A stretch of DNA of 36,190 nucleotides, taken from positions 1 through 36,190 of the IMG/VR virus record IMGVR_UViG_3300021197_001618, one strand, 5' to 3'. A model generated the notes under the pieces. That model worked only from the letters and a program-made list of their open reading frames with translations. It was not told the DNA's origin and did not search any database. The translations under genes were made by a program, and so were the position numbers. The stretch comes from a virus. Shown piece by piece: positions 1,449 through 36,190 of this stretch; positions within the stretch are counted from its first letter, which is position 1, and every line of letters begins with the position of its first letter.

Positions 1449-3059
1449 CTATCGACTCCACTTTTCTCGGTAGTTAATTCGTGCTTGAATCACGTCGCCA
1501 CCATAGAGATCGAAATACTCGATGGCTTCTAACTGCATATTCTGAATAGTCGGAGACACACCTCGTTGCGTAAGCGATTGCAGAATCTCATCGTAGATCG
1601 GGGAGTCTTTGTCGCTTGCTTCTTCAACAAATTCACTGACCTGCTTTTGGTCTAAATCTATGATATTCGTGATCGTGGAACCAAAAGTGGAACCAAAAAA
1701 TCCCTTTTCTTCATAGCTCTCGTTTAGGACCGACTGGAATAGCTGCAACTTTTCCGTGAAGTTTAACGGGCCGCCTTTATCATACTCCGCAGATAAGATT
1801 TGTTTGTACATAGCAACATGCACTCGCGCATTTCTACGGTCAAGATCGGCCTTGACCGCTGGCTTTAGTTCGCCAGATGGGCGCATCGTTTGCATTTGAG
1901 TGTCAACGTATTTCCGAACAGAGGCCGAGTAGCTTTTACCCTGATCTACGCCATCCACGCGGAGCTCGTCCTGCGCTTTTTTGAGATCGTCGTGCATCTC
2001 TTTGGAGATTCGACCTCTGGCCTTATCATCCCAAATGTCGATTTCTGCAAACGCTTTAGGGTCGTCTATCCGCATGTCAGTATATTGTTGCCAAACGACA
2101 GACTGGAAATCTTCGTTGACTTCTTCGAGTTTTCCGTCTCGCTTTTCCTCGATGTATTTCTTCGCGGCCTTTCGCTCTTTGGGCGTTCCCAGACCACTGT
2201 CTACAACATCCATCGCCTGCTGAAATTGGTTTTGATCGACTAGATCAAGGGTCGAGCTCCAAAGCGAATCGGTTTCTTGATTGATACGCTTTGTCTCGGA
2301 TCTCTCGTTCTCTGTGATTCGGTTTTTTACCCTGGCAACTACATCATCGCGGAGGTCTGGGTCTTCGATAGCTCTCGCTAATTGAAGTTGCTCTGCATTC
2401 GATAGGCTCGCTCCAGTCTCTTCGTCAACCCTAGACATAATGTCGTCGGTCGTGCTCTGAGATACACGCTTTCGATACTTTTCAGCACCGCGCAGCATGT
2501 AATTCTGGCGTTGAGTTGCTGCCTCGCCTTCGTTAATAAAGCCGTTGGCAACTCCAGATTGTATTAACGATTCAACTTGAGCGTCGGCAATTCTTAAATC
2601 TTCTGCGGTAATGTCTGGACGATCCGCCATCGTTAGGTGGAAATTGATCGCAGCGTCTAGCGTTGAACGACCAGAGTCGATCTGCCGGAGACGGATGCGA
2701 TGGTTCGACCTGTTTGTGATCTGGTCGCCATAACGCTTAGATTGCCTGTCGAATACTCCAGCAGAGCCGCCTCGGTGCTTGCTCTTCAGCTTTCTCTGTA
2801 GAGCGTTCAACTGCTCAGGCGCTTTTTCCAGATCACCCGTTAATGCGATTTTGTCCGCTTCTTCTTGATACTCTGAGGAGAAGTCCGTTGCTCGACGAGT
2901 GCCCTCTTGCTCTAGCCAAGCGTCACCGATCAGCCCAAGACTAGAAACGGCTGCACCAAGATCACTCTGAGCTGCGCCGATTCCTGCGCCAAAATCAGAG
3001 GCCGAAACTCTTGGCTGGGATACAGGGTTTGGAATAGTGTCTAGGGTCAGCTTAGGCAT
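1449..3059 (-). CDS. Internal virion (ejection) protein, gp15-like
   Basis: This 536-residue protein is mostly polar and predicted helical, with many Gln, Arg and Glu residues. It has no enzyme motif I recognise. It sits between a gp14-like small internal protein and the giant gp16-like protein, the usual place of the second internal core protein in T7-like and related podoviruses. That position is the main basis for the call. The N-terminus (SQPRVSASDFGAGIGAAQSDLG) has the sort of alanine- and glycine-rich leader common in such proteins. The ATG at 3059 overlaps the end of the upstream gene. An in-frame TTG at 3071 has AGGGAG just upstream and could be the start instead. Confidence 0.72.
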   Translation of the reverse strand: MPKLTLDTIPNPVSQPRVSASDFGAGIGAAQSDLGAAVSSLGLIGDAWLEQEGTRRATDFSSEYQEEADKIALTGDLEKAPEQLNALQRKLKSKHRGGSAGVFDRQSKRYGDQITNRSNHRIRLRQIDSGRSTLDAAINFHLTMADRPDITAEDLRIADAQVESLIQSGVANGFINEGEAATQRQNYMLRGAEKYRKRVSQSTTDDIMSRVDEETGASLSNAEQLQLARAIEDPDLRDDVVARVKNRITENERSETKRINQETDSLWSSTLDLVDQNQFQQAMDVVDSGLGTPKERKAAKKYIEEKRDGKLEEVNEDFQSVVWQQYTDMRIDDPKAFAEIDIWDDKARGRISKEMHDDLKKAQDELRVDGVDQGKSYSASVRKYVDTQMQTMRPSGELKPAVKADLDRRNARVHVAMYKQILSAEYDKGGPLNFTEKLQLFQSVLNESYEEKGFFGSTFGSTITNIIDLDQKQVSEFVEEASDKDSPIYDEILQSLTQRGVSPTIQNMQLEAIEYFDLYGGDVIQARINYREKWSR

Positions 3060-3480
3060 TTTTAACAGCAAGGCTCCCTAGTTGACCTGCCCCACGAAGC
3101 ACGGACGAAGCGATACCCATGCGTGACGCAGCCCTCGCGGTATCACCGCGCATTTTGTAGATCTCAGCTTCTATCTCGCCAGCGTCTCGAATCATTCCGA
3201 TCTGTCGAATGTTTTGAAACTGGCTTTCGGCAATTTCCACAAGCGGAGAACCTGAAAGCCGTACTCCTGACTTTGCAACCTGTGTGATATTTGTCGATCT
3301 TTGAAGTCGCGACCTTCTGATCTGGGCTTCGATCGCCATGCTCGTCTCTCGCCGAGACATCTCTGCATTGAACTTGGCCGCTTTCTCCGCAGCCTTGCCA
3401 GCCTGAGCTTGGCCGAATGCGCTCGTTACCAACCCAGCCGTCATCAAGCCATAAGTTGCGGGAAGAACGTAATCGGCCAT
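3052..3480 (-). CDS. Small internal virion protein, gp14-like
   Basis: This 142-residue protein starts with a short hydrophobic Ala/Gly segment (residues 5-30), followed by a long basic, helical stretch rich in Ala, Arg, Gln and Glu. The middle contains the motif KSGVRLSGSP, which I associate with small ejection proteins in many podoviruses. In T7, gp14 leaves the capsid and forms the outer-membrane part of the DNA channel; a similar role here is inferred. The start overlaps the stop of the nozzle gene as TGATG, so the two are probably translationally coupled. It is followed directly by the larger internal proteins. Confidence 0.75.
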   Translation of the reverse strand: MADYVLPATYGLMTAGLVTSAFGQAQAGKAAEKAAKFNAEMSRRETSMAIEAQIRRSRLQRSTNITQVAKSGVRLSGSPLVEIAESQFQNIRQIGMIRDAGEIEAEIYKMRGDTARAASRMGIASSVLRGAGQLGSLAVKNA

Positions 3481-8387: not shown

Positions 8388-9293
8388 TCAGCTATGATAC
8401 GCGATTGTATTGAGTCGCTTGAGTTCTGCTGCTGCGGATTTGTCGCCCTTGTTTGCCGCAGCCATAAGTTCGCCACCCTTCAGCGCAATCTGTTGCTTTG
8501 CGGCATCAGGTGTAAGACCAAACGCAAGCGCGTTGCCGTTGTCACTCTTGTCGTCGCCTCGCTTGTGCTCTCCGCTCATTCGACCCACAAGCGCACCGAG
8601 CTTCATAGTTTCTTTGTATCCGATTGCATTCTCAAGCGCGTCAATTACTTCAGGCGCAAACTCAAGAGTCTCGAATCCCCTACGAGCGGCAAGCTGATTC
8701 TCTTCAAGCACCGGCCCCCATTCATTGTCGAGCTCAATCTTCTCGGCTGAGTTCTTCGCGTTTTTTGCGTCAAATTCTACCTTGATTGCATTCTCGAGCA
8801 CCGCAGCATTAGCGCGCGAGACGGCCTCGTGCTGTGCCGGGGTAAGCCCTGCCTCGTGATGCCCTGCCGCAAACAGCGAAGAGTCAAAAGGCTGACCCTG
8901 CACTTCGAGCGAGGGAGACTCATACCCGTCAGGAGCCTCCGGCACGCCCATACGCGCACGAAACTCTGCTGCCTGCTCTTCATTCCCTAGTTCTGGAATG
9001 CGAACAAGTTGATCGGCTTTCACGCCACGAAGACGCTCGCCGTTCTGATAGCTTTTGAGCATTTCAGACACAGGGTTTTCGGACTTGTCCCAACCCTTGT
9101 TACTAATGAATCCGATTTCGTCTTCGCTCAGGCCAGTAGACCAGGAAGACGGCGCGTCTGCTGCCGGCGTTGCTGCCGTATCCATTCCACCCGAATCTGC
9201 CGCCGCTGGTTCCGCTGCAAGTACATCCGAAGCCGATGCTACTGCCGGTGCTGCCTCAATCGGTGCCGCTGGTGCGGCTACCTCTTCACTCAT
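8388..9293 (-). CDS. Capsid scaffolding protein
   Basis: This 301-residue acidic protein starts with an Ala/Pro/Glu-rich segment of about 50 residues. It continues with SEDEIGFISNKGW and SEMLKSYQN, typical of podovirus scaffold proteins, then helical repeats and a C-terminus rich in Lys and Ala. Scaffold proteins fill the procapsid and leave before or during packaging. It sits between the portal side and the capsid gene, as usual. The ATG at 9293 overlaps the stop of the preceding gene as TGATG and has GGGGGAG upstream. A GTG one codon further up is possible. Confidence 0.88.
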   Translation of the reverse strand: MSEEVAAPAAPIEAAPAVASASDVLAAEPAAADSGGMDTAATPAADAPSSWSTGLSEDEIGFISNKGWDKSENPVSEMLKSYQNGERLRGVKADQLVRIPELGNEEQAAEFRARMGVPEAPDGYESPSLEVQGQPFDSSLFAAGHHEAGLTPAQHEAVSRANAAVLENAIKVEFDAKNAKNSAEKIELDNEWGPVLEENQLAARRGFETLEFAPEVIDALENAIGYKETMKLGALVGRMSGEHKRGDDKSDNGNALAFGLTPDAAKQQIALKGGELMAAANKGDKSAAAELKRLNTIAYHS

Positions 9294-9586
9294 CACTCTC
9301 CCCCTTCAGTTAGTGCTCTCTCTTGGATGGCAAAGACATCTTCACCTTCCATCGTTCCTAGATCGTACATGGCAAAGAACGCCTCTCGACGCCCCTCAGC
9401 CCTTGCTAACTCAAGCGAATCTGTCTCGTCGCTCACTTCAAACACTCCGCAGAAGTCAGCGAAGAAAGCCCACGCAGCAGCCGAGTTGGGTGTTCGTTTC
9501 CATTCCTGAACCCCACGCCATGCGTTGTAGGGTTTGCGCGACAAATAGCTTTTGACGCGCTCGATCAACGTCCCAGACTTTCTCAA
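9293..9586 (-). CDS. Conserved-looking hypothetical protein between portal and scaffold
   Basis: This 97-residue, probably helical protein contains YLSRKPYNAWRGVQEWKRT and a run of acidic and aromatic residues ending in ALTEGGE. I do not recognise a family. It overlaps the portal stop as TTGA (TTG start) and the scaffold start as TGATG, so it is held tightly inside the head-gene operon. A small head-assembly or portal-associated role is plausible from position only. Confidence 0.7.
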   Translation of the reverse strand: MRKSGTLIERVKSYLSRKPYNAWRGVQEWKRTPNSAAAWAFFADFCGVFEVSDETDSLELARAEGRREAFFAMYDLGTMEGEDVFAIQERALTEGGE

Positions 9587-16239: not shown

Positions 16240-17025
16240 CTAAAAAAGTTCGTCCTGAACGCCACAGAGTAGGCCGCATTCCCATGACTCTTCTGGCTTG
16301 TCCATGCCCGCGTCTGGATCGAGTTCATCGAGGAAAACTCGCTTACGCTCATTGTCTCCCGCGTAGCTTTTGCAGATCGCCACATCCAGGGTTCGCTCCA
16401 GTTTTGCCATTCTTTCAAACTCAAGCGGTAAAACCCGTCTTACTTTGTTCCAGTGCCCCATGCCCGCCTTTGGGCAAGCCGGACAATTAGCGTGGGCGAA
16501 GCCCATCCGATAGGAATCAGGTATCTCGATTCCTGCACGCATAACCATCTCAGCGCACTGAGCCTTAGACATGCCCTGCGTGATAAGCGGCGTCCGCAGG
16601 TCAATCTCTGGGTTATTCTCCCTAAATCGTTCAACGCGCACGTTCTCGCTCGTATCAAATCCAAAAATCTGCGGGTCGTCCTCGCGGCCCTTTGTGTAGA
16701 TTCGACGGGGCACGATTTTAAGCTCCGCTGTGCATCGCGCACCACCAGGGCCTACTAGCCAACGGGTCTTCTCGTACACGTCCCATGTGTCGCGGTACTT
16801 TGTGGAACGGATAATCTCAATCGGCTTGCCGATCCAGACCTCGCAGTCCTTCAGGAATCTCAGGTTATCGGCAGGCTCACTACCCGGATCGGTATAGACG
16901 ACATCAACACGGTCTGCGCCATATTCGTCTACGGTCAACTTTGCCGCGACTGCACTCGTAACGCCGCAGGAGAACCAGCAGATAATACGGTTGCGTCCGT
17001 TGCTCTCCGTCAATGATGATTCCAT
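16240..17025 (-). CDS. PAPS-reductase-like adenine nucleotide alpha-hydrolase
   Basis: This 261-residue protein has the PP-loop SCGVTSA (residues 19-25), VDVVYTDPGSE and ARCTAELKIVPRR, a pattern of the phosphoadenosine phosphosulfate reductase superfamily. Four C-terminal cysteines (ANCPACPKAG and ECGLLCG) could hold an Fe-S cluster. Phage members are widespread. Proposed roles include sulfur transfer to nucleic acids (as in DndC-type DNA phosphorothioation) or sulfur metabolism; no other dnd-like gene is visible here. The start overlaps the stop of the regulator gene as TGATG, so this is the second gene of the leftward unit. Confidence 0.88.
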   Translation of the reverse strand: MESSLTESNGRNRIICWFSCGVTSAVAAKLTVDEYGADRVDVVYTDPGSEPADNLRFLKDCEVWIGKPIEIIRSTKYRDTWDVYEKTRWLVGPGGARCTAELKIVPRRIYTKGREDDPQIFGFDTSENVRVERFRENNPEIDLRTPLITQGMSKAQCAEMVMRAGIEIPDSYRMGFAHANCPACPKAGMGHWNKVRRVLPLEFERMAKLERTLDVAICKSYAGDNERKRVFLDELDPDAGMDKPEESWECGLLCGVQDELF

Positions 17026-17246
17026 CACCCCACCAGCGCCAAGAGCTTGCGGTTCGCCGCAGTCAGCGGCACGTCGGTGCGCTTCACCACGCCCTTGGTC
17101 GCCTTCTCGATTGCGAGTGCGAGCTGCGGACTAGCGGTGCGTCTCTTCTTGCGGAGCCGGTTGATCGTTGGCTGACCTACGCCAACCGAGTCGGCCAGAG
17201 TTGTCTCTGTCCAGTCAGTGCTGCGAAGTAATTTATCTAATGTCAT
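17025..17246 (-). CDS. Cro/YdaS-like helix-turn-helix regulator
   Basis: This 73-residue protein has a helix-turn-helix over residues 14-40 (TETTLADSVGVGQPTINRLR) and then ASPQLALAIEKATKGVVKRTDV. That second segment is typical of YdaS/Cro-type phage regulators. It heads the leftward unit and faces the rightward early operon, so it is the probable switch protein binding the intergenic operators. No ribosome site precedes the ATG, and the best promoter puts transcription start at or next to the A of ATG, suggesting a leaderless mRNA like lambda cI from PRM. Confidence 0.85.
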   Translation of the reverse strand: MTLDKLLRSTDWTETTLADSVGVGQPTINRLRKKRRTASPQLALAIEKATKGVVKRTDVPLTAANRKLLALVG

Positions 17247-20230: not shown

Positions 20231-20676
20231 GCGAACCAACCTACGGCGAAATCATCAAAGCAGCTCGCGAGGCGAAAGGCTGGAGCAATCAGAAGTTTGC
20301 CTCCGAAGCCGGCCTTAGCGATTCCACGACACACGCTGCAGAGAACGGCAAAACCAATCTGACTAGAACGACACGCATCAAGATCGAGGGTGCGCTTGAT
20401 CTGTCGATTACGCCGTGCACTTTTGATGAGAAAACTTTCTTCAGGACACAGAGTGCCGCGACCAATACTCCTGACGGACCAGCCCTGTGGAGTTTGGAGT
20501 GGTCGCAAGAATTGAAGCGGTGCCGCTTGAACAGAAATTGGACGCCAACTGAACTAGCGCGCAAAGCCGACATCGGAGTTAGCCAGCTTTACGCGGTTGA
20601 GTCTGGGCAACGAATCCCACGCTTAGACGTAGCGATGGCGCTGAGCGATGCGCTGGGGATGGCTATCGAATGGTGA
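20227..20676 (+). CDS. Regulator with two XRE-type helix-turn-helix domains
   Basis: Of 149 residues, about 8-45 (IIKAAREAKGWSNQKFASEA) form one XRE-type fold and 91-149 (LEWSQELKRCRLNRNWTPTE) a second. The second is homologous to the whole of the next gene product, sharing W..EW.Q..KR and the ending DALGMAIEW, which points to an in-operon duplication. It could bind operators as a pseudo-dimer. The ATG overlaps the previous stop as ATGA. The last 31 bases are one copy of a three-copy repeat. Confidence 0.8.
   Translation: MSEPTYGEIIKAAREAKGWSNQKFASEAGLSDSTTHAAENGKTNLTRTTRIKIEGALDLSITPCTFDEKTFFRTQSAATNTPDGPALWSLEWSQELKRCRLNRNWTPTELARKADIGVSQLYAVESGQRIPRLDVAMALSDALGMAIEW
20644..20674 (+). repeat. 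31-bp direct repeat, copy 1
   Basis: Begins AGCGATGCGCTGGGG and ends TCGAATGGT. It covers the last codons of the two-domain regulator (SDALGMAIEW). Identical copies start at 20862 and 21618. Copies 1 and 3 also share the next two bases (GA). Confidence 0.95.
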
Positions 20677-21610: not shown

Positions 21611-21617
21611 TGTTTGG

Positions 21618-21648
21618 AGCGATGCGCTGGGGATGGCTATCGAATGGT
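21618..21648 (+). repeat. 31-bp direct repeat, copy 3 (orphan)
   Basis: Identical to copies 1 and 2, but no regulator gene precedes it; only seven bases separate it from the SprT-derived repeat. It lies just upstream of the methyltransferase ribosome site and looks like the remnant of a third regulator gene end. Confidence 0.93.
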
Positions 21649-21674
21649 GAACGATAAGAGGGAGGGCTCATCAG

Positions 21675-25447: not shown

Positions 25448-25813
25448 CTATCGCGGATCAATTTCCGCGTGAATGTGCATGTTTAACCCTTCGCCGTGAA
25501 CCACGAATTGGTACGAGCCAAGAGGATCGTCGAGCCGCTGTCGAACGCGACCAACCCACTCCCACATCGCGAGCTCTCGAGCATCGTCATCTGCCGCTTC
25601 TACGTTTCTGGAACGGATGTCAAACGCGCTGCACCAAGTATGGGCATCGTCGGTGTGTCGGGCGGATCGGTGCCCTTCGGTGATTACCATGCGCCCATCT
25701 GTCGTATCTGGGGCAGTGACCAAAAGTGCCGTGAGCAAAGCGACCATTTCAGGACGGAAGTTTGATGGCTTGAACGAAGCGTTTTCTTTGAATGCAATTT
25801 CTTCGGTAATCAT
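25448..25813 (-). CDS. Endolysin, peptidase M15-like
   Basis: This 121-residue protein has ITEGHRSARHTDDAHTWCSA followed by FDIRS, so His58 and Asp65 fit the HxxxxxxD zinc site of M15 peptidases. The final NMHIHAEID (His113/His115) supplies the third ligand. Such enzymes cut cross-links in peptidoglycan, often L-Ala-D-Glu. There is no signal peptide, so it needs a holin for export. It sits two genes ahead of the spanins in a compact lysis cassette. Confidence 0.85.
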   Translation of the reverse strand: MITEEIAFKENASFKPSNFRPEMVALLTALLVTAPDTTDGRMVITEGHRSARHTDDAHTWCSAFDIRSRNVEAADDDARELAMWEWVGRVRQRLDDPLGSYQFVVHGEGLNMHIHAEIDPR

Positions 25814-26181: not shown

Positions 26182-27180
26182 CTACTCTCTGACTAATCCA
26201 ACGAGCCCATCGGCAATCTGTTTTGACATCCATCGAAAACCGTTATCCCCGAGTGAATTAGGATCAGTTCCCGGATGCGTGCAGTCGATACATACGCCGT
26301 CGTCTTGCTCTGAACGTCGATACAAATCATGCGCGGCTTGGGTTCCGTTTTCCGCTTCGTACTGATCGTAAAGAGTGAACAGGTCAAGCATTATGTGATC
26401 TGTTCCAGGGAGAAGCGTTTGAACAATTTGGTCGCGCAAAAATTTAGCGTTAGGGTACGAAAAAGCTCTTGCGCCTGACATGTTAGGTAGTCCGGTAGAG
26501 ATTAAACACCGCAGTCCATTTGCTGTTGCGTGGTCTAGCATCGCCTCGTAGTCTCGAATTGCATCAACATACAAAGCGTTGCTTGTTGTCCAAGCCGCAG
26601 TATCCGATCCACGAAATGTGTCGTTAGCTAGGTAGTCGATTAGACAAACGGAAGTAGGCGACGGAAGACGATCCTCCAAACAAGTAGGAACGCAATTGCT
26701 AGCCGCGCAGCACGGTGAATCCCATTGGGCTCCGGCTGGCTCTCCCGTAGTTCCACAACCAGCAGCGCTATTAGACACAACTGCGCTGGTTGTTAAATTT
26801 GCGTAACGAGTCAGCGGCGCAAACGATTCGCAGGCGCTTGTCGTTGGATGCCGTTTCATCTGGAATATGCCTATCATGTTGCACGATTTTGTAGGCCCCG
26901 GACCAAAATCCATCTGATAATTATCGTCAGAGTGACACTCTCGCGTACTTAATCCATCAAAGTCGTAAGCCTGCGCCCCGGCGTGCGCGGCATTGTTGTA
27001 AACATTAAAACCAAACTCCTCAAGAGTCGGCCCGTAGCCTGGATAAACGCCTGAAGCGTATTCAGTGTCGTTGTACGAATGACCGTACATATACACGTCA
27101 ACCGCAATTGTTTGGTTGTCTGATCGCGCGCTAAACGCAGACAAAAAGATCCATATAACCAAACAGCACTTAAAGCGCAT
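26182..27180 (-). CDS. Secreted SGNH/GDSL-type hydrolase
   Basis: The 332 residues begin with a signal peptide (MRFKCCLVIWIFLSAFSARS). The nucleophile block reads YMYGHSYND, with Ser35 in GHS instead of GDS, and the end has CIDCTHPG with Asp299 and His302, the catalytic pair of block V. Five or more cysteine-containing loops in between suggest disulfides. Such enzymes remove acyl or acetyl groups from glycans, so it may trim a surface polysaccharide during attachment or release. Start and previous stop overlap as TAATG. Confidence 0.82.
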   Translation of the reverse strand: MRFKCCLVIWIFLSAFSARSDNQTIAVDVYMYGHSYNDTEYASGVYPGYGPTLEEFGFNVYNNAAHAGAQAYDFDGLSTRECHSDDNYQMDFGPGPTKSCNMIGIFQMKRHPTTSACESFAPLTRYANLTTSAVVSNSAAGCGTTGEPAGAQWDSPCCAASNCVPTCLEDRLPSPTSVCLIDYLANDTFRGSDTAAWTTSNALYVDAIRDYEAMLDHATANGLRCLISTGLPNMSGARAFSYPNAKFLRDQIVQTLLPGTDHIMLDLFTLYDQYEAENGTQAAHDLYRRSEQDDGVCIDCTHPGTDPNSLGDNGFRWMSKQIADGLVGLVRE

Positions 27181-28113: not shown

Positions 28114-30903
28114 TTATGCGTTATTGGAGCGAGAAATCTCATTCCAATTTGTTCCGTCGCAGACGAGCTGCATCGTGTCGCCCACTGTCGCGGAAAAGTT
28201 TCCGGCGATATTGATGTTAGACCCGTCTGTCACAGTGATAGACCCACCGAACTCAAGAGTTACTTTTTGCCCGCTGTACCCTGCTGTGATGGTGCCGACC
28301 CCCGTCGTTCCGGTAAGCCGAACGTATTCAATTCCAGAAGGGATCACGATAGTTCCGCTTGACGCAACATCAGCCCTCGTACTCGAGGTAGGCCCGACGC
28401 GCTTCACTACGGACTTAGTTGGAATTCTCACGTCCAGCGTGACGTTCCCGCTCGCGACCGCGCTAGAGATCGTCACCGCAGTTGGGTTCGCTGAGCATAG
28501 GATTCCGTACTGCTGCGAGGCGAGCGGCTGAACATCGACTTGGAGCTTTTGAAGAGATGCGCCGGACAGGTTCGAGGAAAACACTGTGTCCAGAACGGCG
28601 ACGTTCGCGCTGCTCACCCTGACCATCCTTCGCCACTCGGCGGGGCTACTCGCAAGAACCCACGTCTTGCCAGTAACTTCCGTGTGCAGAGCGCCGCTAG
28701 AGCCCGCTACTGCGTAGTCCGTCGTGGAGAACGTCCCCGTTAGCGCGGTTACGTTCCCCGAAGCAGAGTATGTAAATGGACCGCTTGTTTCTGCTGTTAG
28801 GTCGTCTCCACTCATGCTCACGATCTTCACGTCCGCGTGAGATCCTGAGCCCCCCGCATCTACGAGACGGATGTGCTGCCCCACGTTAAGGAGCCCCGGA
28901 GCAATCATGCTGACTGCGTATTGGTTGCCTGTCGTAGACCCAGGCTGGAACGAGGCTCCGTTAGTCTTCGTTGACCAATTTTGAGTGTCTGAAGCTGTCA
29001 CGTCTACGACCGACACGCGATCAACGTCGTTAATCAGTATCCCGCAGCGAACCCCTGAGCCAAGAGCTGAATCTTGTCCGTTGTTGTTGTACGTCCCGCC
29101 CCGGATGTATACGTCGCTCCCCTTGTCTACAACGACACCGTTTGAACCGTTATACATAGAGAGGCAGGCGTCCAGCACTACGTCCGACGACTCAGGTGTA
29201 GGAGCGTTGGCAAAGTGGCCGTTGGCTAGATCCTGATCTACACGGAAACCGTTGTTATCGTTTCCTATCGCCGAACAGTTAGTAAGCCTCACACCACCCG
29301 ACTGAATTGCGAACCCGTCCGCCTCGGCCCCCATCACGAGAGCGTTTGAGATCGTCAGGTTCCGACACGCCGCGTTAGAACGATAGTTATTAGCGACCCC
29401 TGGCACGGTCGGTCGAAGCCCCAATCCGGCAGTGCGGCACCGAACGCCAATTCCGCCAGCCGCCGCCGTGTTGTACTCCAAATTGCAGTAGATCCCCTCG
29501 ATTGCGGTGTCCTCGCAGGTATGTATCGAAATGCCTTCGTCGTATCCGCCGTCTACCGACAACCCGCGCAGGTTAGACCGGGACGTTGAGTCGATTGCGA
29601 AACCCATCCCAGGCTTAGTAACGCCTGTGAAGCCGGTCGCTACCAGACCGGATGCGTCGAATCGAAGCATACGCTCGAAGGTGAACGCGGTGGCGGTAGG
29701 CTCTAGGCCGCTGTTATCCGGCGCGAAGTCCACGATCCGCACATTTTTCATGGCTAAGTTATCAGCGTCTCTGAACTCCGTCGCGTGCTGATAAATCGCC
29801 TTCCCGTTGTTGCTGATCCCCTCAAATGTGACGTTCTCAACACGACCGTTATTCGCTTCCTGATGAGTGCAGCCCTTACCGCAGTCCTTTACGTGGATGT
29901 TTTCAAAGACCGAATTACTCCCGCTACCGAAATACCATCCCGCGTGGAGGAAGTCATGGATGTAGGTGTTGCTGACACGGATGTGAGTCGGCCCGCCGAC
30001 CACGCGAATTGATGTCATCACCTGAGCGGTATGCCCTCCAGTAAGTGCAGCCGCGTTGCCATCGAACTGCCCCCCCTCGACAGACGAGAAGTCCGATCCT
30101 GTCGAAAACTTTAAGATTGCCTGATCTTGTCCCCCAGTAATACTTCTCTGTTTTAGGATGGCTAGCGGCTCTAACGTAATCTGACACTTCTTGGTAATCG
30201 TGACTTCATCCAGCATGTAAGTTCCAGCAGGAAAAAACAAAGAGCCGCCTTGAGCACATGCTGCTTGCACCGATGCTGTGTCGTTCGCGGACCCATTTCC
30301 AAGTGCGCCGAAGTCTTTTACGCTGAGCATATCTCCGGTGTGGTCTTGCAGGGTTCTATTTGTAACTCCCCCGGTCGCAATAACGGCACCCACAAGACCG
30401 CTTGCCTGAGCGTCAACGTAGTCTTTTGTTACTAAGTCAGTCCCTAAAATGCCAGTTGTAAGGTTCTTGATCCGGTTGTTCTTCGCGTCATACGCACCCG
30501 ATCCGTCTACGTCACCGTCTGGCAGAGTGATAGAACGGTCTGCAATATCCCGAGACCGCTTGTTGATGTTGAGCTGCTTATCAAGCGCGTCTTCGTGAGA
30601 CTGTGCAGGGAATGCGCCGCCAGTGCTGTAGTCGGTGAGCTGCGTGAGCTCAGGGTCTAAGATGATAGAAACTGTTTCGCCTAGAAGCGGGGCAGTCACA
30701 AAATCTACAGCGCCACCTACAGACGAACCGACACCCGATACGGTGTAGTCAGTCGTAATCGTTTTAACGGAATCAACACCCGCCGCACTTTGAACGACGA
30801 CCTTCAAACTCGCTTGGTCGAGAATGCGAAAACTGTAAGCGAACGAAGTCGTAGACCCGTTACCAGAGTAGGATAGTCGCTTTAACTGGCTTGAAATAGT
30901 CAT
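28114..30903 (-). CDS. Tailspike with pectate-lyase-like beta helix
   Basis: In this 929-residue protein, residues 1-130 resemble the virion-attaching N-terminus of T7-type tail fibres. Near 193-230, SVKDFGALGNGSANDTASVQ and LFFPAGTYML mark the start of a pectate-lyase/right-handed beta-helix domain that runs for about 500 residues. The last 90 form a small beta domain with GDTMQLVCDGTNWNEISRS. It should bind and probably cleave a host polysaccharide. AAGGGAA precedes the ATG. It follows the giant internal protein with one base between. Confidence 0.92.
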   Translation of the reverse strand: MTISSQLKRLSYSGNGSTTSFAYSFRILDQASLKVVVQSAAGVDSVKTITTDYTVSGVGSSVGGAVDFVTAPLLGETVSIILDPELTQLTDYSTGGAFPAQSHEDALDKQLNINKRSRDIADRSITLPDGDVDGSGAYDAKNNRIKNLTTGILGTDLVTKDYVDAQASGLVGAVIATGGVTNRTLQDHTGDMLSVKDFGALGNGSANDTASVQAACAQGGSLFFPAGTYMLDEVTITKKCQITLEPLAILKQRSITGGQDQAILKFSTGSDFSSVEGGQFDGNAAALTGGHTAQVMTSIRVVGGPTHIRVSNTYIHDFLHAGWYFGSGSNSVFENIHVKDCGKGCTHQEANNGRVENVTFEGISNNGKAIYQHATEFRDADNLAMKNVRIVDFAPDNSGLEPTATAFTFERMLRFDASGLVATGFTGVTKPGMGFAIDSTSRSNLRGLSVDGGYDEGISIHTCEDTAIEGIYCNLEYNTAAAGGIGVRCRTAGLGLRPTVPGVANNYRSNAACRNLTISNALVMGAEADGFAIQSGGVRLTNCSAIGNDNNGFRVDQDLANGHFANAPTPESSDVVLDACLSMYNGSNGVVVDKGSDVYIRGGTYNNNGQDSALGSGVRCGILINDVDRVSVVDVTASDTQNWSTKTNGASFQPGSTTGNQYAVSMIAPGLLNVGQHIRLVDAGGSGSHADVKIVSMSGDDLTAETSGPFTYSASGNVTALTGTFSTTDYAVAGSSGALHTEVTGKTWVLASSPAEWRRMVRVSSANVAVLDTVFSSNLSGASLQKLQVDVQPLASQQYGILCSANPTAVTISSAVASGNVTLDVRIPTKSVVKRVGPTSSTRADVASSGTIVIPSGIEYVRLTGTTGVGTITAGYSGQKVTLEFGGSITVTDGSNINIAGNFSATVGDTMQLVCDGTNWNEISRSNNA

Positions 30904-30904
30904 G

Positions 30905-33900
30905 TTATTCCCTTAGAAATTCTTCGATTTTATCGACTGGATAGGATGGAGGAAATCCGTACATAAATGATCTCAACACATCTAACGATTCCCAAGCTGC
31001 ATCTTCGATGTCTCCCTCTCGAACTGAACCCAAGAACGTACCCGTGTTTTTCACAACCCTAGCTATAGACGGTTCAAACCCAAATGAGTTTTGACCAGTG
31101 ACGGCACCCGAAAACAATGTGACAACTGGGACTGTGCCCATCGCTTCTGAAACAAGAATCTGAGCCAGCCACTTCAAGTAGCCAACAACGTCTGCGTCGT
31201 CTTCTGGCCCACCACGCCCACCCATCGCGGCTTTCATCAAGTCGTATGTGATGCCAGGGATGATAAGAGCAAAAGTCAAGTCGGCTAAAATTGCAGCCTT
31301 TCCCCTGTCTTTGACAGTTCTCAATCCCAGCGTGACGGCTTGATTGTAAACAGCGCTCATGTACGAGTAGAAGACCGTGAAGATCTTTGAGAGTTCCGTA
31401 CCTCTCTGAATAGCGGCCAGATCCTTAGTATCGCCACCGCCCTGTGATATCCGAACAACCTTCTCGGCTAATCTCTGGGCATCCTTGGGCGACATATCGA
31501 GCTCTTGTATCGCGGCCTCTTGTACCGCTAAGTACACCGGAAGATCAACGGCATAAACCTGCAATTTGCCAATCAGACGCATACCAAAGTCCGCGACTTC
31601 TTTGCTCTTCTGCTCAGTAGTTAAAGCGCCTTTGATTGCCTTCTTTGCCAAGGTTGACGAGTCTTTGCTCGCCAAGCTCATTGAGCCAACGTCTACAGAT
31701 CGGCTGAGATCTCTTGCCTCTCTGCCAATGTATTTAATCCTCTGCCTAATCGTCGCAGACTCTTCAAATACACTTTCAGCTTCACGAGCAACAAACGCAG
31801 GGTTCGACATAACCGTTGCGTGATACTTCGCATAGTTGGGGATCATCTTGCGCGCTACACCGTAGGCGTTTGAGTGGCCCAACGGCTGGCCCATGAGTGT
31901 GCTCAGCCTGAATGCAAGAGCGCCGGCTGTTTCACCTAGCCTGATACGCTTCATAAACGAATTGAGCCCAGCGATGTTGGCGCTTTCGGTAACTCGGTCG
32001 TTGGCTATATCCATAAGCCACGGCTCAAACAACGAGAAATACTCTTCCCCTAGAGTCGTTTCTTGAAGAGCTCTTCGGATGTCTTCGTGCTTGAGTAGCT
32101 TGTGAACTTGCATCAGCGTGTCTCGAGTGGACACCTTGCTTACAATCTCGTCGATATGGTTAGGGATGACTGAAAGGTCAAAGAGGATTGCGCGGTCTTT
32201 TACCTTTCGCATCCGCTCGTTTGCCGCTCCTGGCCTTCCAGAGATTGAGGCAAACGGATTAACGATCCCGTCGTTGATAGATTTCTTGTTTAGGTCTTCG
32301 GCCCGCATTGAATGGAACGGATCGTAAATGATTGGAAAGTAAGCGCCTTGGAAATCTCCAAATGGAGTTTTGATCGTGCGACCGATTACCTTCTCAGGAA
32401 CGATTCCAGCAGTGCGCGCCTCGTCCGCTGCGATCTCCGACCAAAGACTACCGATAATCTCGGAAGCCTCTTTGGCAAAAGCGTAATCCTCTCGGCTCAT
32501 CTTGCTGAATACAAACGCTTCAACGTCTTGAAGTTTCCAGCCGTTGCCGTCTTCAATCCTCTGCACGTTTCCGTTGTTACCGATATTCAAAAACAGAGAG
32601 ACAACCTCGAGCATGTTCATCTCTACGTTCTTGCCTGTTCGCCTGCTTTTGAACGGAGTCTCGAAGACTTTTGAGTATTCCTCGATTCGAGGTTTTAGGT
32701 AGCTCTCCATGAGTGCGTTTAGTTCTTCGGTCTTTTCGGCAGATAGATCGTTTCGGCGCTCTACTGAATCACTAACTGGCTGATAGACCTTTTGGGACCA
32801 CGCTCCGTTGGGGTCCAACCCGTCAAATAATAAAGAGATAGCTTCCATCTTTGCTAGAGAAGCCTCTGCTCCTACAAATATGCTTCTCATCTTGTCTAAA
32901 AGTCGCGCATTACCTCTGCGTAGATCACGCCCTGTCACGTTCTTCTTGATCGCATCAACCAACGATGCCCGAACTTCCGCCTGCATTTCCTTTTGACCGG
33001 CAGCGTTAAACTCGAACTGCCTAACGGCGATCGTTTCGATATTCTTCAGCGCATCGGTGAGCTCTGAAAGCTCCTTAATGGTCAGCTCTTTCCAGCTCTT
33101 TGTGAAAGCCTCGTCCCTGATCTTGTCAGAGATATAAATCGGGTCGTATTCTGATTCTCTTTCGATAATAAACTCAGAGAGAGATTTTCTGTTCTCGATC
33201 TCTTTGATGGTTCTGCTTACGTTCAAATCAAAACGATTAAGCAAGCCAAGTATGACCTGCAAGTATTCTTGACCGGCCAAGCCTATTCGCGAAAGTCGTC
33301 TCTTCGTCTGAAGACGGTTCGCGAAATTAGCTGCCTTCAGCCCGTTCTCTTTGGCGCGCCTTGCGTCGGACTCAAGCAGAGCATTCAAAACCTGCCGACG
33401 CTTGTGCATAGATGACTTCGCAAAGTCGTCTTGGATTGCTGCCTCAAGAGCGAGCCGGCCTTCTCTGGCGGCTGCTAGCCGGTACTTGTGAGGCTTCAGG
33501 TGCCGCCACTGCGTGTTCTCTATGATCTCGCGAGCCTTGCCCCTGGCCTCACTTAAAGCCATTGCTGGGACGCCTGCGCGCTTTGATGCGTCCTTTTCCT
33601 CGACAAGCAAATCGCTTACTTCACGCTCAACCTGCTCGTCTTTCAGTTGCTCCTGAGTGGCAAACATCCGATCCATGATCTCGACGATTTCAGGAGACAG
33701 CGGACCTTGGAATCCGGGGATGTTTTCCATAGCCCCGTAAAGCTTCGTGAGCCATGCGCCAAACTTCTTAAAGACCGCGCGGAGTGCTTTCGTAGGAGAG
33801 ATTCCGCGCATAAAATAGTTTTCAGTCCACGAAGCCCATTGCTCTTGAAACTCAGACGAGAAGACATCATCCGTTCCGACTGCTTCGCGCATGTGCGCCT

Positions 33901-36190
33901 TGATCGTTTCGAGATCCGCAGCAAACTCGCCGCCGTCTACTCGGGCGTCCTTGTCAAGTTGAGCAAGCCAGAGGTGCCCCGACTCGTGAAGGAATGTCGA
34001 ACGATCTGCGGCTTCACCTAACCGGATAACGACGTTGCGGAGCTCGGGGTCTGATAGGTCGATGGAGCCGCGTTCGGGCTGAAAGAACGTCTTTGCAATC
34101 TCAATCGCGTTCTCGTCGTAGATGACGTAATTGGTGGCTGTGCCGGGTCCGCCGCTAATCTGGTTGGCTTGGTACTTGTGACCCTTGATGCCGGCGGCGC
34201 TCAAAGCCTTAGAAACTTCGGCATCCCCTCCGTAATATTCTGCCATAGTCCTATAAAAAGACTCGCCTGTAGCTTTATGAATGCGGCTTTTAGGATCAGC
34301 GAACGCAGCGCTAATTGTTCTATTCAAAGTTTGCCCGTCAACCTGCTCCATCCAGTTGTCACTGTGCATGGTGCGACGAAAGTCGAGCATAATCTCCTGA
34401 ACCTTTGGAATCTGCTCGCTCAGCGGCGCGTCCCAGTCCATTAGCTCGTTGTCTTCGGGGATCTCGACTTGGAAGAGTTGGCCTTGGTCAGCTTCAAGCT
34501 CAATGCCTGCTTCAATTGCCCCCTTCAGCTCCCTTACGTCTTTTTTCAAGCTCTCAACAATGGTTGAGTCTTTAATTAATTCCTCAGTAGCGAGAAGTCG
34601 CTCCCATAGCGAAACAACATCTCCAAAGTTATTAAGCCCGCTTCTCCGCGAAACGCTACGCATAGCATCGTATGTAGCCCCAGCTTGGGGACGGGTCAGA
34701 CCGAGGGATGTCTCTATCAAGTCCATGATAGATCCCCGGTCATCGGCAAGTTTGACGGAATCCCCGGAACCTATGCGAACGCCAATGTCCGACTTTCCAC
34801 TTAAAGCATTACGATAGAACTCCGCAATCCCGCGCGAGCTGGAGAAGTACAGCCCCCACCCAAACGCCTGCGCGCCCTCGCCTGTGCCGATGGCGTCCAT
34901 GCTGAACTTGTCAAAGCGGTGCGGGCCACCGTGGAAGGCGGGTTGTTCAAATCGGCGAGAAGTAAAGTCAAGAACCGGAACTATCTCAATTCCCAATTCT
35001 TTGGCTGCGATGGCTCTGTGTCTTCCATCCGAAGCACGAACATCTGTTAGGTCATCTTTGTAAATAGTGAGCGGGTCAAGAGGTTCGCCCCGCTCCATCT
35101 TCTCCTTGAGTTCGTCTATGTTTTCCCGCGTCAGTTCGTCAATCTCAAGCGGTTTTGTGCGAGACAGAAACTCGTCTGGGGTCATCTCAACTAAAGAAGC
35201 ACCTCGCGCCTTATAATCTGCGTCTGCGTACCATCTGTCTCTTGACTCCAACGGATATTCGCTTTGGTCGAAGGTGCGGGTAGCGCCCTCGGGCAACTCC
35301 TGACCCGGACCAATGATCTGCGGCATACCCTCTTGAGCAATCAACTGGCTAAGAGAGAGCCCCTTACGATCTGCGCGCGCTTCCATTTGAGCGAGGGCGA
35401 TCTCTGTAAACGCAGACGCTTCCGAGTTTTCATAGGTGCCGCGCAACTGACCCCAGATCATTGCCGATGCGTCTTCTCGAGCCTGGGATTCAGTCAATGA
35501 CTCTTGATCTGCGTCTACCTTCGCATCAAGTTCAGCACGCTCGGATTCGGTGAGCTCCGCAAGCATTGCTTCGCCGGACTCTTCCAACGCGCCCGAGATG
35601 CTTCCCTTGAAAGCGTCCGCCTGCACCGCTGTCATATCTTCGGGAGTGAACCGGACGTGCCTAGAAATCGCACTCGCTAGCGGAGTGTGGGCCACGTTGA
35701 GCATGTAATCTTCAATCGACAGAACGATGTCGTTGCCAGTCTCCGCCGAGTCTTCAATCTGTGCCTGAAGACCTTCAATGGACGCGATGATCTCTTGAAT
35801 CGAACGAGGATCTTCAACATTGCCCATGAACCGCTGAACGGCTTCGCTTGAGATGTAGATCTCGCCCTGCGGATAGCTGCGCTTTACATGATCTGCGTAT
35901 GCCTCTGGATTCGTCTCCCGCAAGGTAGACTCCGAGGCCGTCTTGTTCATCTTCATCACGCGGCTTAGGGTTGCCCCAGCCTTCTGGACGCCTGACAGAT
36001 TGTTCAGATTCTTGACAGCACCACGGACACGATCAGCGTTAAGGCCCAGAGCGCCAGACGTTTCTGTCAGCGCTTGACCAGTTAAGCCCATGCCGCCGCC
36101 GCCTTGAGCGCCAGCAATCGCAGACTCAAAGACTCGAGCCCAAAATGCTTCGCTTCCGTTTCGCGTGACACTCTCGCCCGTCTCTAAATC
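30905..36190 (-). CDS. Giant polyvalent internal virion protein, C-terminal part
   Basis: Joined to the frame at 1446-1 this makes 2,153 residues. Full-length positions: a ParB-like segment with ASDGRHRAIAAKELGI (about 740-802); an ADP-ribosyltransferase-like domain from FHGGPHRFDKFS through GWGLYFSSS to NYVIYDENAIEIAK (about 810-1092); a zincin-like site FLHESGHLWL (about 1126); long coiled helices; and a C-terminal region resembling LPD38 (about 1755-2153) with DLAAIQRGTELSKIFTVFYS. In polyvalent phage proteins such domains enter the host with the DNA. Position fits a gp16-type internal protein. An internal ATG at 36091 is not the true start. Confidence 0.85.
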   Translation of the reverse strand, partial: DLETGESVTRNGSEAFWARVFESAIAGAQGGGGMGLTGQALTETSGALGLNADRVRGAVKNLNNLSGVQKAGATLSRVMKMNKTASESTLRETNPEAYADHVKRSYPQGEIYISSEAVQRFMGNVEDPRSIQEIIASIEGLQAQIEDSAETGNDIVLSIEDYMLNVAHTPLASAISRHVRFTPEDMTAVQADAFKGSISGALEESGEAMLAELTESERAELDAKVDADQESLTESQAREDASAMIWGQLRGTYENSEASAFTEIALAQMEARADRKGLSLSQLIAQEGMPQIIGPGQELPEGATRTFDQSEYPLESRDRWYADADYKARGASLVEMTPDEFLSRTKPLEIDELTRENIDELKEKMERGEPLDPLTIYKDDLTDVRASDGRHRAIAAKELGIEIVPVLDFTSRRFEQPAFHGGPHRFDKFSMDAIGTGEGAQAFGWGLYFSSSRGIAEFYRNALSGKSDIGVRIGSGDSVKLADDRGSIMDLIETSLGLTRPQAGATYDAMRSVSRRSGLNNFGDVVSLWERLLATEELIKDSTIVESLKKDVRELKGAIEAGIELEADQGQLFQVEIPEDNELMDWDAPLSEQIPKVQEIMLDFRRTMHSDNWMEQVDGQTLNRTISAAFADPKSRIHKATGESFYRTMAEYYGGDAEVSKALSAAGIKGHKYQANQISGGPGTATNYVIYDENAIEIAKTFFQPERGSIDLSDPELRNVVIRLGEAADRSTFLHESGHLWLAQLDKDARVDGGEFAADLETIKAHMREAVGTDDVFSSEFQEQWASWTENYFMRGISPTKALRAVFKKFGAWLTKLYGAMENIPGFQGPLSPEIVEIMDRMFATQEQLKDEQVEREVSDLLVEEKDASKRAGVPAMALSEARGKAREIIENTQWRHLKPHKYRLAAAREGRLALEAAIQDDFAKSSMHKRRQVLNALLESDARRAKENGLKAANFANRLQTKRRLSRIGLAGQEYLQVILGLLNRFDLNVSRTIKEIENRKSLSEFIIERESEYDPIYISDKIRDEAFTKSWKELTIKELSELTDALKNIETIAVRQFEFNAAGQKEMQAEVRASLVDAIKKNVTGRDLRRGNARLLDKMRSIFVGAEASLAKMEAISLLFDGLDPNGAWSQKVYQPVSDSVERRNDLSAEKTEELNALMESYLKPRIEEYSKVFETPFKSRRTGKNVEMNMLEVVSLFLNIGNNGNVQRIEDGNGWKLQDVEAFVFSKMSREDYAFAKEASEIIGSLWSEIAADEARTAGIVPEKVIGRTIKTPFGDFQGAYFPIIYDPFHSMRAEDLNKKSINDGIVNPFASISGRPGAANERMRKVKDRAILFDLSVIPNHIDEIVSKVSTRDTLMQVHKLLKHEDIRRALQETTLGEEYFSLFEPWLMDIANDRVTESANIAGLNSFMKRIRLGETAGALAFRLSTLMGQPLGHSNAYGVARKMIPNYAKYHATVMSNPAFVAREAESVFEESATIRQRIKYIGREARDLSRSVDVGSMSLASKDSSTLAKKAIKGALTTEQKSKEVADFGMRLIGKLQVYAVDLPVYLAVQEAAIQELDMSPKDAQRLAEKVVRISQGGGDTKDLAAIQRGTELSKIFTVFYSYMSAVYNQAVTLGLRTVKDRGKAAILADLTFALIIPGITYDLMKAAMGGRGGPEDDADVVGYLKWLAQILVSEAMGTVPVVTLFSGAVTGQNSFGFEPSIARVVKNTGTFLGSVREGDIEDAAWESLDVLRSFMYGFPPSYPVDKIEEFLRE
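35921..36190. repeat. Contig-end overlap, right copy
   Basis: Same sequence as 1-270 with three mismatches. It should be counted once when the genome is circularised. The overlap lies within the N-terminal quarter of the giant protein gene. Confidence 0.95.

Follow-up and report, generated by a model that had tools for sequence, protein, structure and literature searches.

Both ends of the 36,190-base virus record IMGVR_UViG_3300021197_001618 in IMG/VR (the window, analysed here over its full length) fall inside open reading frames (ORFs), which raises the question of whether the two terminal gene pieces form one giant virion gene and what its product would do. The pieces were analysed separately and belong to a single gene, whose product is a member of the known class of polyvalent proteins. 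The account that we lean towards, without great assurance, is that of a polyvalent ejection protein with swappable effectors, which would be released by cutting at short [LFY]xQ marks.

In the ORF list, two minus-strand frames run off the record, the one at 30905-36190 without a 5' end and the one at 1-1461 without a 3' end. Over 270 bases, the start and the end of the window match each other with three mismatches (window 127, 136 and 242), leaving one amino-acid difference over 90 shared residues, and since 270 is a multiple of three the reading frame carries on across the join. Two further contigs, IMGVR_UViG_3300021378_000204 (L003) and IMGVR_UViG_3300021375_000086 (L004), share 99.98% identity and thus represent one close relative sampled twice. 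In both, the junction lies inside a single uninterrupted ORF of 2699 amino acids (L004 8540-16639), with amino-acid identities of 98.6% to the N-terminal piece of the window and 98.7% to residues 1-301 of the C-terminal piece. Because of the terminal overlap and these spanning ORFs, the giant gene is single and continuous across the contig ends, as an initial annotation had proposed. An artefact of end assembly is ruled out by the same ORFs, and so is a stop codon between the two parts. L003 sides with the copy at positions 1-270 at all three mismatches, and the final bases of the window record are therefore probably errors or variants.

The N-terminal part of the gene covers 1-1461 (residues 1-487 if translation starts at GTG 1461; pN/pS, the ratio of nonsynonymous to synonymous polymorphism, 0.13), and the C-terminal part, a 1761-residue open frame at 30905-36190, overlaps it by 90 residues; all modules and delimiters located below lie on the same minus strand. 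The protein measures 2,153 residues from a TTG at 1446 or 2,158 from the GTG at 1461. With a GGAG nine nucleotides upstream and the stop codon of the gene before it immediately adjacent, the TTG is the likelier start; the previously given length of 2,153 residues holds with it. An annotation of the linear contig would indeed miss 425 residues, this being the difference between 2,153 and the 1,728-residue ORF that begins at ATG 36091. Against L003, pN/pS is 0.16 in a segment termed block 2 below, 0.02 in the peptidase and 0.14 in the C-terminus. The giant frame thus evolves as a protein, with purifying selection along the whole gene that is strongest in the HExxH domain.

The C-terminal part belongs to PHROG 9880 (E 1e-177), a family that includes BPP-1 Bbp10 and Cobetia Carin1 gp32. 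A search with an alignment of five C-terminal parts yielded at least 557 relatives in IMG/VR and at least 117 in genomes, and the anatomy was studied on 125 non-redundant complete proteins out of 178 loci. Among these, the length ahead of the peptidase ranges from 185 to 2,724 residues (coefficient of variation 0.37) and the C-terminal scaffold is near-constant (0.07). All-against-all coverage delineated two shared N-terminal blocks, LPD22 (residues about 25-125) and block 2 (about 375-625), followed by a poorly shared bay and then by a common peptidase and C-terminal scaffold. As judged from these alignments, the family plan is a fixed N-terminal scaffold, a variable cargo bay, an HExxH peptidase and a fixed helical C-terminal scaffold. 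Pfam searches of 108 bays identified ART (31), PBECR5 (12), LPD3 (10), PBECR3 (8), MuF_C (8), GNAT (6), PBECR1 (5), GGDEF (2), RadC (2) and RelA/SpoT (1) domains, besides others, and these contents match the published list of polyvalent effectors (Iyer 2017, PMC5512222).

In the window, the LPD22-like domain at 1045-1245 scores 18.1 bits with Pfam LPD22 (PF18834), below the cut-off of 28.6 that the Carin1 and BPP-1 homologues pass, and E 1.6e-4 with a profile of the relatives that pass it. Block 2, common to about 100 of 124 relatives, lies at 35273-35866 (profile E 2.5e-39). The predicted peptidase, zincin-like and of the CLCA_X type, occupies 33551-34078, with its HESGH motif at 33974-33988. 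Residues 707-849 of the C-terminal piece align with Bbp10 774-926 (31% identity, E 4e-12); Bbp10 700-1000 is the published zincin seed of the CLCA_X family (Lenart 2013, PMC3650047), and CLCA_X is sister to the CLCA proteins, which self-cleave (PMC3650047). HExxH is kept in 122 of the 125 relatives, and a downstream Glu is invariant in the peptidase region. As one search pattern contained HE, the 23 members found without that pattern were checked separately, and 22 of them carry HExxH. The HExxH segment is lost in three members (L019, L071 and L143), two of which are also without [LFY]xQ. The initial annotation had counted the HESGH segment as a third effector. The segment is present, but a motif that is near-invariant throughout the family and sits right after the variable cargo points more likely to a processing peptidase.

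The C-terminal scaffold itself (30908-33550) is helical and possibly T7 gp16-like. Its predicted structure, with a predicted local distance difference test score (pLDDT) of 80 and a predicted template modelling score of 0.80, matches many giant phage proteins with diverse annotated cargo in BFVD. Against the PDB, the model aligned with the PhiM1 core 8vb2 (Z 6.0 over 230 residues) and the T7 core 9jyy (Z 5.5 over 219 residues), neither Z score reaching the value that the tool regards as safe for helical proteins; in aligned length these two matches exceed the single-helix rows. The relationship to ejectosome core proteins is thus only suggestive. A profile of the C-terminal scaffold showed no similarity to ejectosome cores in the PDB, and a small helical protein found at E 0.005 in that comparison was taken as a chance match. 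The LPD38-like region that had been assigned to the C-terminus was not recovered: Pfam LPD38 (PF18857) gave no match at E 1 in the protein or in the C-terminal part alone, and a search of the LPD38 family was empty, as were the controls for that search.

Two effector-type modules were located in the bay of the window protein, in agreement with the initial annotation. The ParB-like module (34946-35263) carries a DGRHR motif, matches PHROG 1033 at E 2.9e-5 and is 49% identical to gp6 of an Octadecabacter virus; it had neither a Pfam nor a fold match. The module resembling the ADP-ribosyltransferase (ART) family ART-PolyVal (PF18760) lies at 34088-34942 (Pfam E 3.5e-4) and scores 20.5-21.8 bits against a cut-off of 31.2, its close homologues scoring 17-26 bits. 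The residues of the HYD triad are in place (H 34931-34933, Y 34847-34849, D 34115-34117), within AFHGG, GLYF and NYVIYD segments that were aligned with 10 relatives; the last position is N or S in a few relatives. Two disparate effector-type domains, ParB-like and ART-like, are thus combined in the protein, as expected of a polyvalent protein. Plasmids encode members of the same ART family too: in Pseudomonas they lie in proteins that bear the annotation LPD23 domain-containing, and a Teredinibacter plasmid carries a standalone gene.

Comparison of close relatives revealed that the cargo is exchanged. The window and L003/L004 are approximately 97-99% identical on either side of the bay, and L003/L004 hold about 640 residues including PBECR5 (E 1.6e-18; 67.9 bits in L004, above the cut-off) in place of the ParB-like module of the window, so that their bay consists of PBECR5 plus ART. 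Within the ART module, the middle (34478-34825) diverges between the window and L003, with a homology gap at 34484-34813. The relatives L041 and L042 are 99.2% identical in the C-terminal and 98.8% in the N-terminal part, whereas their bays of 541 and 1,444 residues share 21% and 8%. Cargo is likewise swapped in the pairs L040/L036, L156/L159, L150/L155 and L090/L075. Less than half of the bay is shared at 50% identity in 206 of 259 pairs with at least 50% identity in the C-terminal part, the pairs being non-independent. As these comparisons show, exchange is general in the family, and cargo differs even where the scaffolds reach 99% identity. In L164, a ParB-like module resembling that of the window is directly followed by PBECR5, each after an [LFY]xQ-type mark (ILYQ and LYQ).

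For most of the swapped pairs, the point where homology returns is a [FLYN]Q or lies directly behind one. In the window, such delimiters are found ahead of the ParB-like module (FDQ/S, 35261-35272), the ART module (FEQ/P, 34940-34951) and the peptidase (FFQ/P, 34076-34087). An [LFY]xQ occurs within about 25 residues before the peptidase in 107 of 115 members, compared with 12 of 111 in a control window 50 residues upstream, and at the Q position the next-best residue reaches 36 of 115. The strict form [LFY][FYDEN]Q[SPAGT] is 3.0 times as frequent as in shuffled sequences in the bay and 0.6 times as frequent in the C-terminal scaffold; its density is 18.4 per 1000 residues just before the peptidase versus about 1 or less in the bins of the C-terminal scaffold. 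The mark is near 35 of the 77 module starts that are supported by at least three relatives (10.5+/-3.2 at random). It precedes ART, PBECR5 (n=7), LPD3 (n=5) and the peptidase at differing spacings of 2-27 residues to the domain, the PBECR5 and LPD3 samples being small. A loose [hydrophobic]xQ[small] pattern was rejected as a marker; in the bay it exceeds shuffled sequences by no more than a factor of 1.3, with similar values elsewhere, and is thus uninformative without position. An apparent delimiter at the start of block 2 was not counted, as relatives mostly read FxQFV there, which is likely a scaffold helix.

The ART family allowed the mark to be assigned to the scaffold. For this control, 80 IMG/VR loci were found by the ART module alone, with the mark left out of the query, and three annotated loci were added. 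The mark stands exactly before the ART in 13 of 15 ORFs with this peptidase and C-terminal scaffold and in 4 of 63 other ORFs (Fisher P 1e-9). These 63 comprise 21 with another HExxH (none marked), 38 complete ORFs without HExxH (four marked) and four truncated ones (none marked). The P value is optimistic because some rows are near-duplicates (L221/L233 and L199/L201/L204), but the contrast persists. Standalone ARTs such as phiGT1_5 and the Teredinibacter plasmid protein carry no mark. Members of the family without this scaffold read G[IF]xAYHG and similar, whereas those with it show starts of the LFQ/PAYHG type. By this contrast within one ART family, the mark belongs to the scaffold and not to the ART fold. 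Marks of other scaffolds were sought by repeat counts, which were mostly at chance level; the one striking case is L189, a 4056-residue ORF with another scaffold, in which RFAVA occurs four times, once exactly before the ART (RFAVAAYHG), and which may possess a different scaffold-specific delimiter.

The position of the gene is in line with delivery, as the initial annotation had suggested. It is encoded among late virion genes in the order portal, capsid, tail tubular A and B, internal virion protein, 540-residue protein, giant, tail fibre. The same order surrounds giants of 1,974-4,012 residues in more than 10 annotated phages, namely BPP-1, Carin1, Caulobacter JessA, Pseudomonas HU1 and PfDIW6, Xanthomonas CP2, Vibrio 1.185.O, Acinetobacter Ab9, Nostoc JY18, and Limnohabitans DC33 and vir555. 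By this synteny, the gene occupies the T7 gp16-like slot of the ejection cassette in a podovirus, between the internal virion genes and the tail fibre. The neighbours, also on the minus strand, are the internal virion protein at 3052-3480 (PHROG 418, E 1.2e-7), the 540-residue protein at 1449-3071, which has the position of a structural lysozyme or gp15-like protein and gave no Pfam match and no family, and the tail fibre with a T7-like N-terminus at 28114-30903 (PHROGs 13893 and 1640), the next gene after the giant. Homology of the fibre to L004 ends near 30533; in L004, the fibre is also replaced beyond its conserved N-terminus (ORFs of 606 plus 685 residues), so these near-identical phages differ in both the fibre and the effector bay. 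The DC33 record (L016, PQ492659.1) is filed as Inoviridae, which is likely a taxonomy error, as the 39-kb genome carries a podovirus cassette.

In the proposed mechanism, the LPD22/block-2 scaffold and the helical C-terminal scaffold would build the giant into the virion core and, together with the DNA, bring it into the cell by way of the tail. The bay of the window would thereby deliver a ParB-like module acting on NTP or DNA and an ADP-ribosyltransferase. Following ejection, the neighbouring HExxH peptidase or a different phage protease would cut at the [LFY]xQ ahead of each module and of the peptidase, splitting the channel-forming scaffold from the effectors, whose targets in early infection would be host proteins or nucleic acids. 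Phages could re-arm by swapping modules between marks while the scaffold is retained. According to an earlier proposal, zincin peptidases divide polyvalent proteins ahead of packaging, inside the head or once they are injected (Iyer 2017, PMC5512222). In view of this, of the kinship of CLCA_X to CLCA and of the family-wide mark, the simplest reading is that self-cleavage at [LFY]xQ frees the two modules, ParB-like and ART, from the ejection scaffold. A further reading, held somewhat more tentatively, is that the resident Bbp10-type peptidase uses [LFY]xQ as its self-cleavage code, that each polyvalent scaffold has a code of its own and that cargo adopts it, since one ART family shows LFQ/PAYHG-type starts here and other residues on other scaffolds, such as RFAVA in L189.

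Several results weigh against this account. Presence in the virion, ejection, cleavage and the effector activities are what we infer. The ART module stays below the Pfam cut-off and the ParB-like module depends on a weak PHROG match, and the model of the ParB-ART-peptidase region was poor (pLDDT 67) and gave no fold match, the best Foldseek E being 3 and VIA Z below 5, all with unrelated proteins. The peptidase part of the model is confident yet had no Foldseek match, a profile search of the PDB with the peptidase returned only matches with E > 0.3, so none to a zincin fold, and Pfam MPTase-PolyVal did not match it. The ejectosome-core scores lie under the safe level, and the FxQ-like peak where block 2 begins may reflect the scaffold itself rather than a mark. 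Precedent for processing is mixed, as P1 DdrB is processed and N4 vRNAP is packaged uncut (PMC5512222).

Other explanations of the mark have to be considered. It is unlikely, though worth weighing, that another phage protease cuts the marks during head maturation and that the HExxH domain does otherwise. T4 gp21 trims internal proteins in an analogous way, and head proteases elsewhere among phages recognise short sites. A candidate is at hand in the PHROG 3742 gene between the portal and capsid genes (window 8388-9296), whose counterpart at the corresponding position in BPP-1 is annotated as a protease, but the BPP-1 capsid proteins are uncleaved (PMC3863775). The mark moreover tracks the HExxH-bearing scaffold, although such phages may share a head protease too, and the joint absence of mark and HExxH in two of three members speaks against a head protease, although one deletion may explain both. 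We likewise consider it improbable that the marks are only conserved joints for recombination or domain spacing, in a protein that stays uncut and acts tethered. Swaps do resume at the joints, and the unprocessed N4 vRNAP (PMC5512222) would be a parallel; yet the residue pattern is conserved, with Q and a large hydrophobic residue two before it, while the spacing to the domain varies, and the near-invariant peptidase would be left with no other obvious role. A placement of the Q within the fold of the individual modules, and not in a linker, is largely refuted and very improbable: in ART modules it usually stands at a fixed two residues from xHG, but the same family without this scaffold seldom has it, and unrelated modules (PBECR5, LPD3 and the peptidase) carry it at varying spacing. 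Release by cutting at the marks, by the resident or another phage peptidase, is the reading favoured here.

Outside the giant gene, a gene similar to phosphoadenosine phosphosulfate reductase and of host-metabolism type was found at 16240-17028 (PHROG 424, E 3.8e-46). Exact repeats of 31-34 bp occur in at least two copies in the window (20643-20676 and 21617-21650), and the early region of L004 has three (25451-25484, 26225-26255 and 26441-26474); they are possible promoter or operator sites.

Like the polyvalent proteins described previously (Iyer 2017, PMC5512222), the giant carries several unrelated effector domains in a late virion context, with HExxH peptidase, ART, ParB-like, PBECR and LPD22 domains, and delivery and processing have been proposed for that class; the present family is distinguished by a single scaffold in which the cargo bay is defined and the mark is specific to that scaffold. 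The text of that study names no delimiter or cleavage site ("linker" is absent and "cleavage site" occurs in a reference title alone). BPP-1 Bbp10 shares the gene slot, LPD22, the HExxH domain and the C-terminal scaffold (25-31% identity), but its cargo is PBECR1 instead of ParB-like and ART modules. P1 DdrB and N4 vRNAP are also large virion proteins with HExxH, and DdrB has a ParB domain (PMC5512222), but their scaffolds differ. With the T7 gp16 and PhiM1 cores, the giant has in common the position between gp15-like and tail fibre genes and the helical alignment over about 220-230 residues at Z below the safe level, but no sequence similarity was found. T7 gp16 differs further in carrying a transglycosylase and in lacking an effector bay. 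The bounded cargo bay and the scaffold-specific delimiter appear to be new, although an earlier account may exist in the subscription literature. The 2017 proposal was that polyvalent proteins are cut into effectors by their own peptidase, at sites that were not known. The mark names predicted cut sites residue by residue in cultured phages, which makes the cleavage idea testable. It also shows annotators the module boundaries in giant phage proteins that are mostly labelled hypothetical, and may thereby point to new injected effectors against bacteria.
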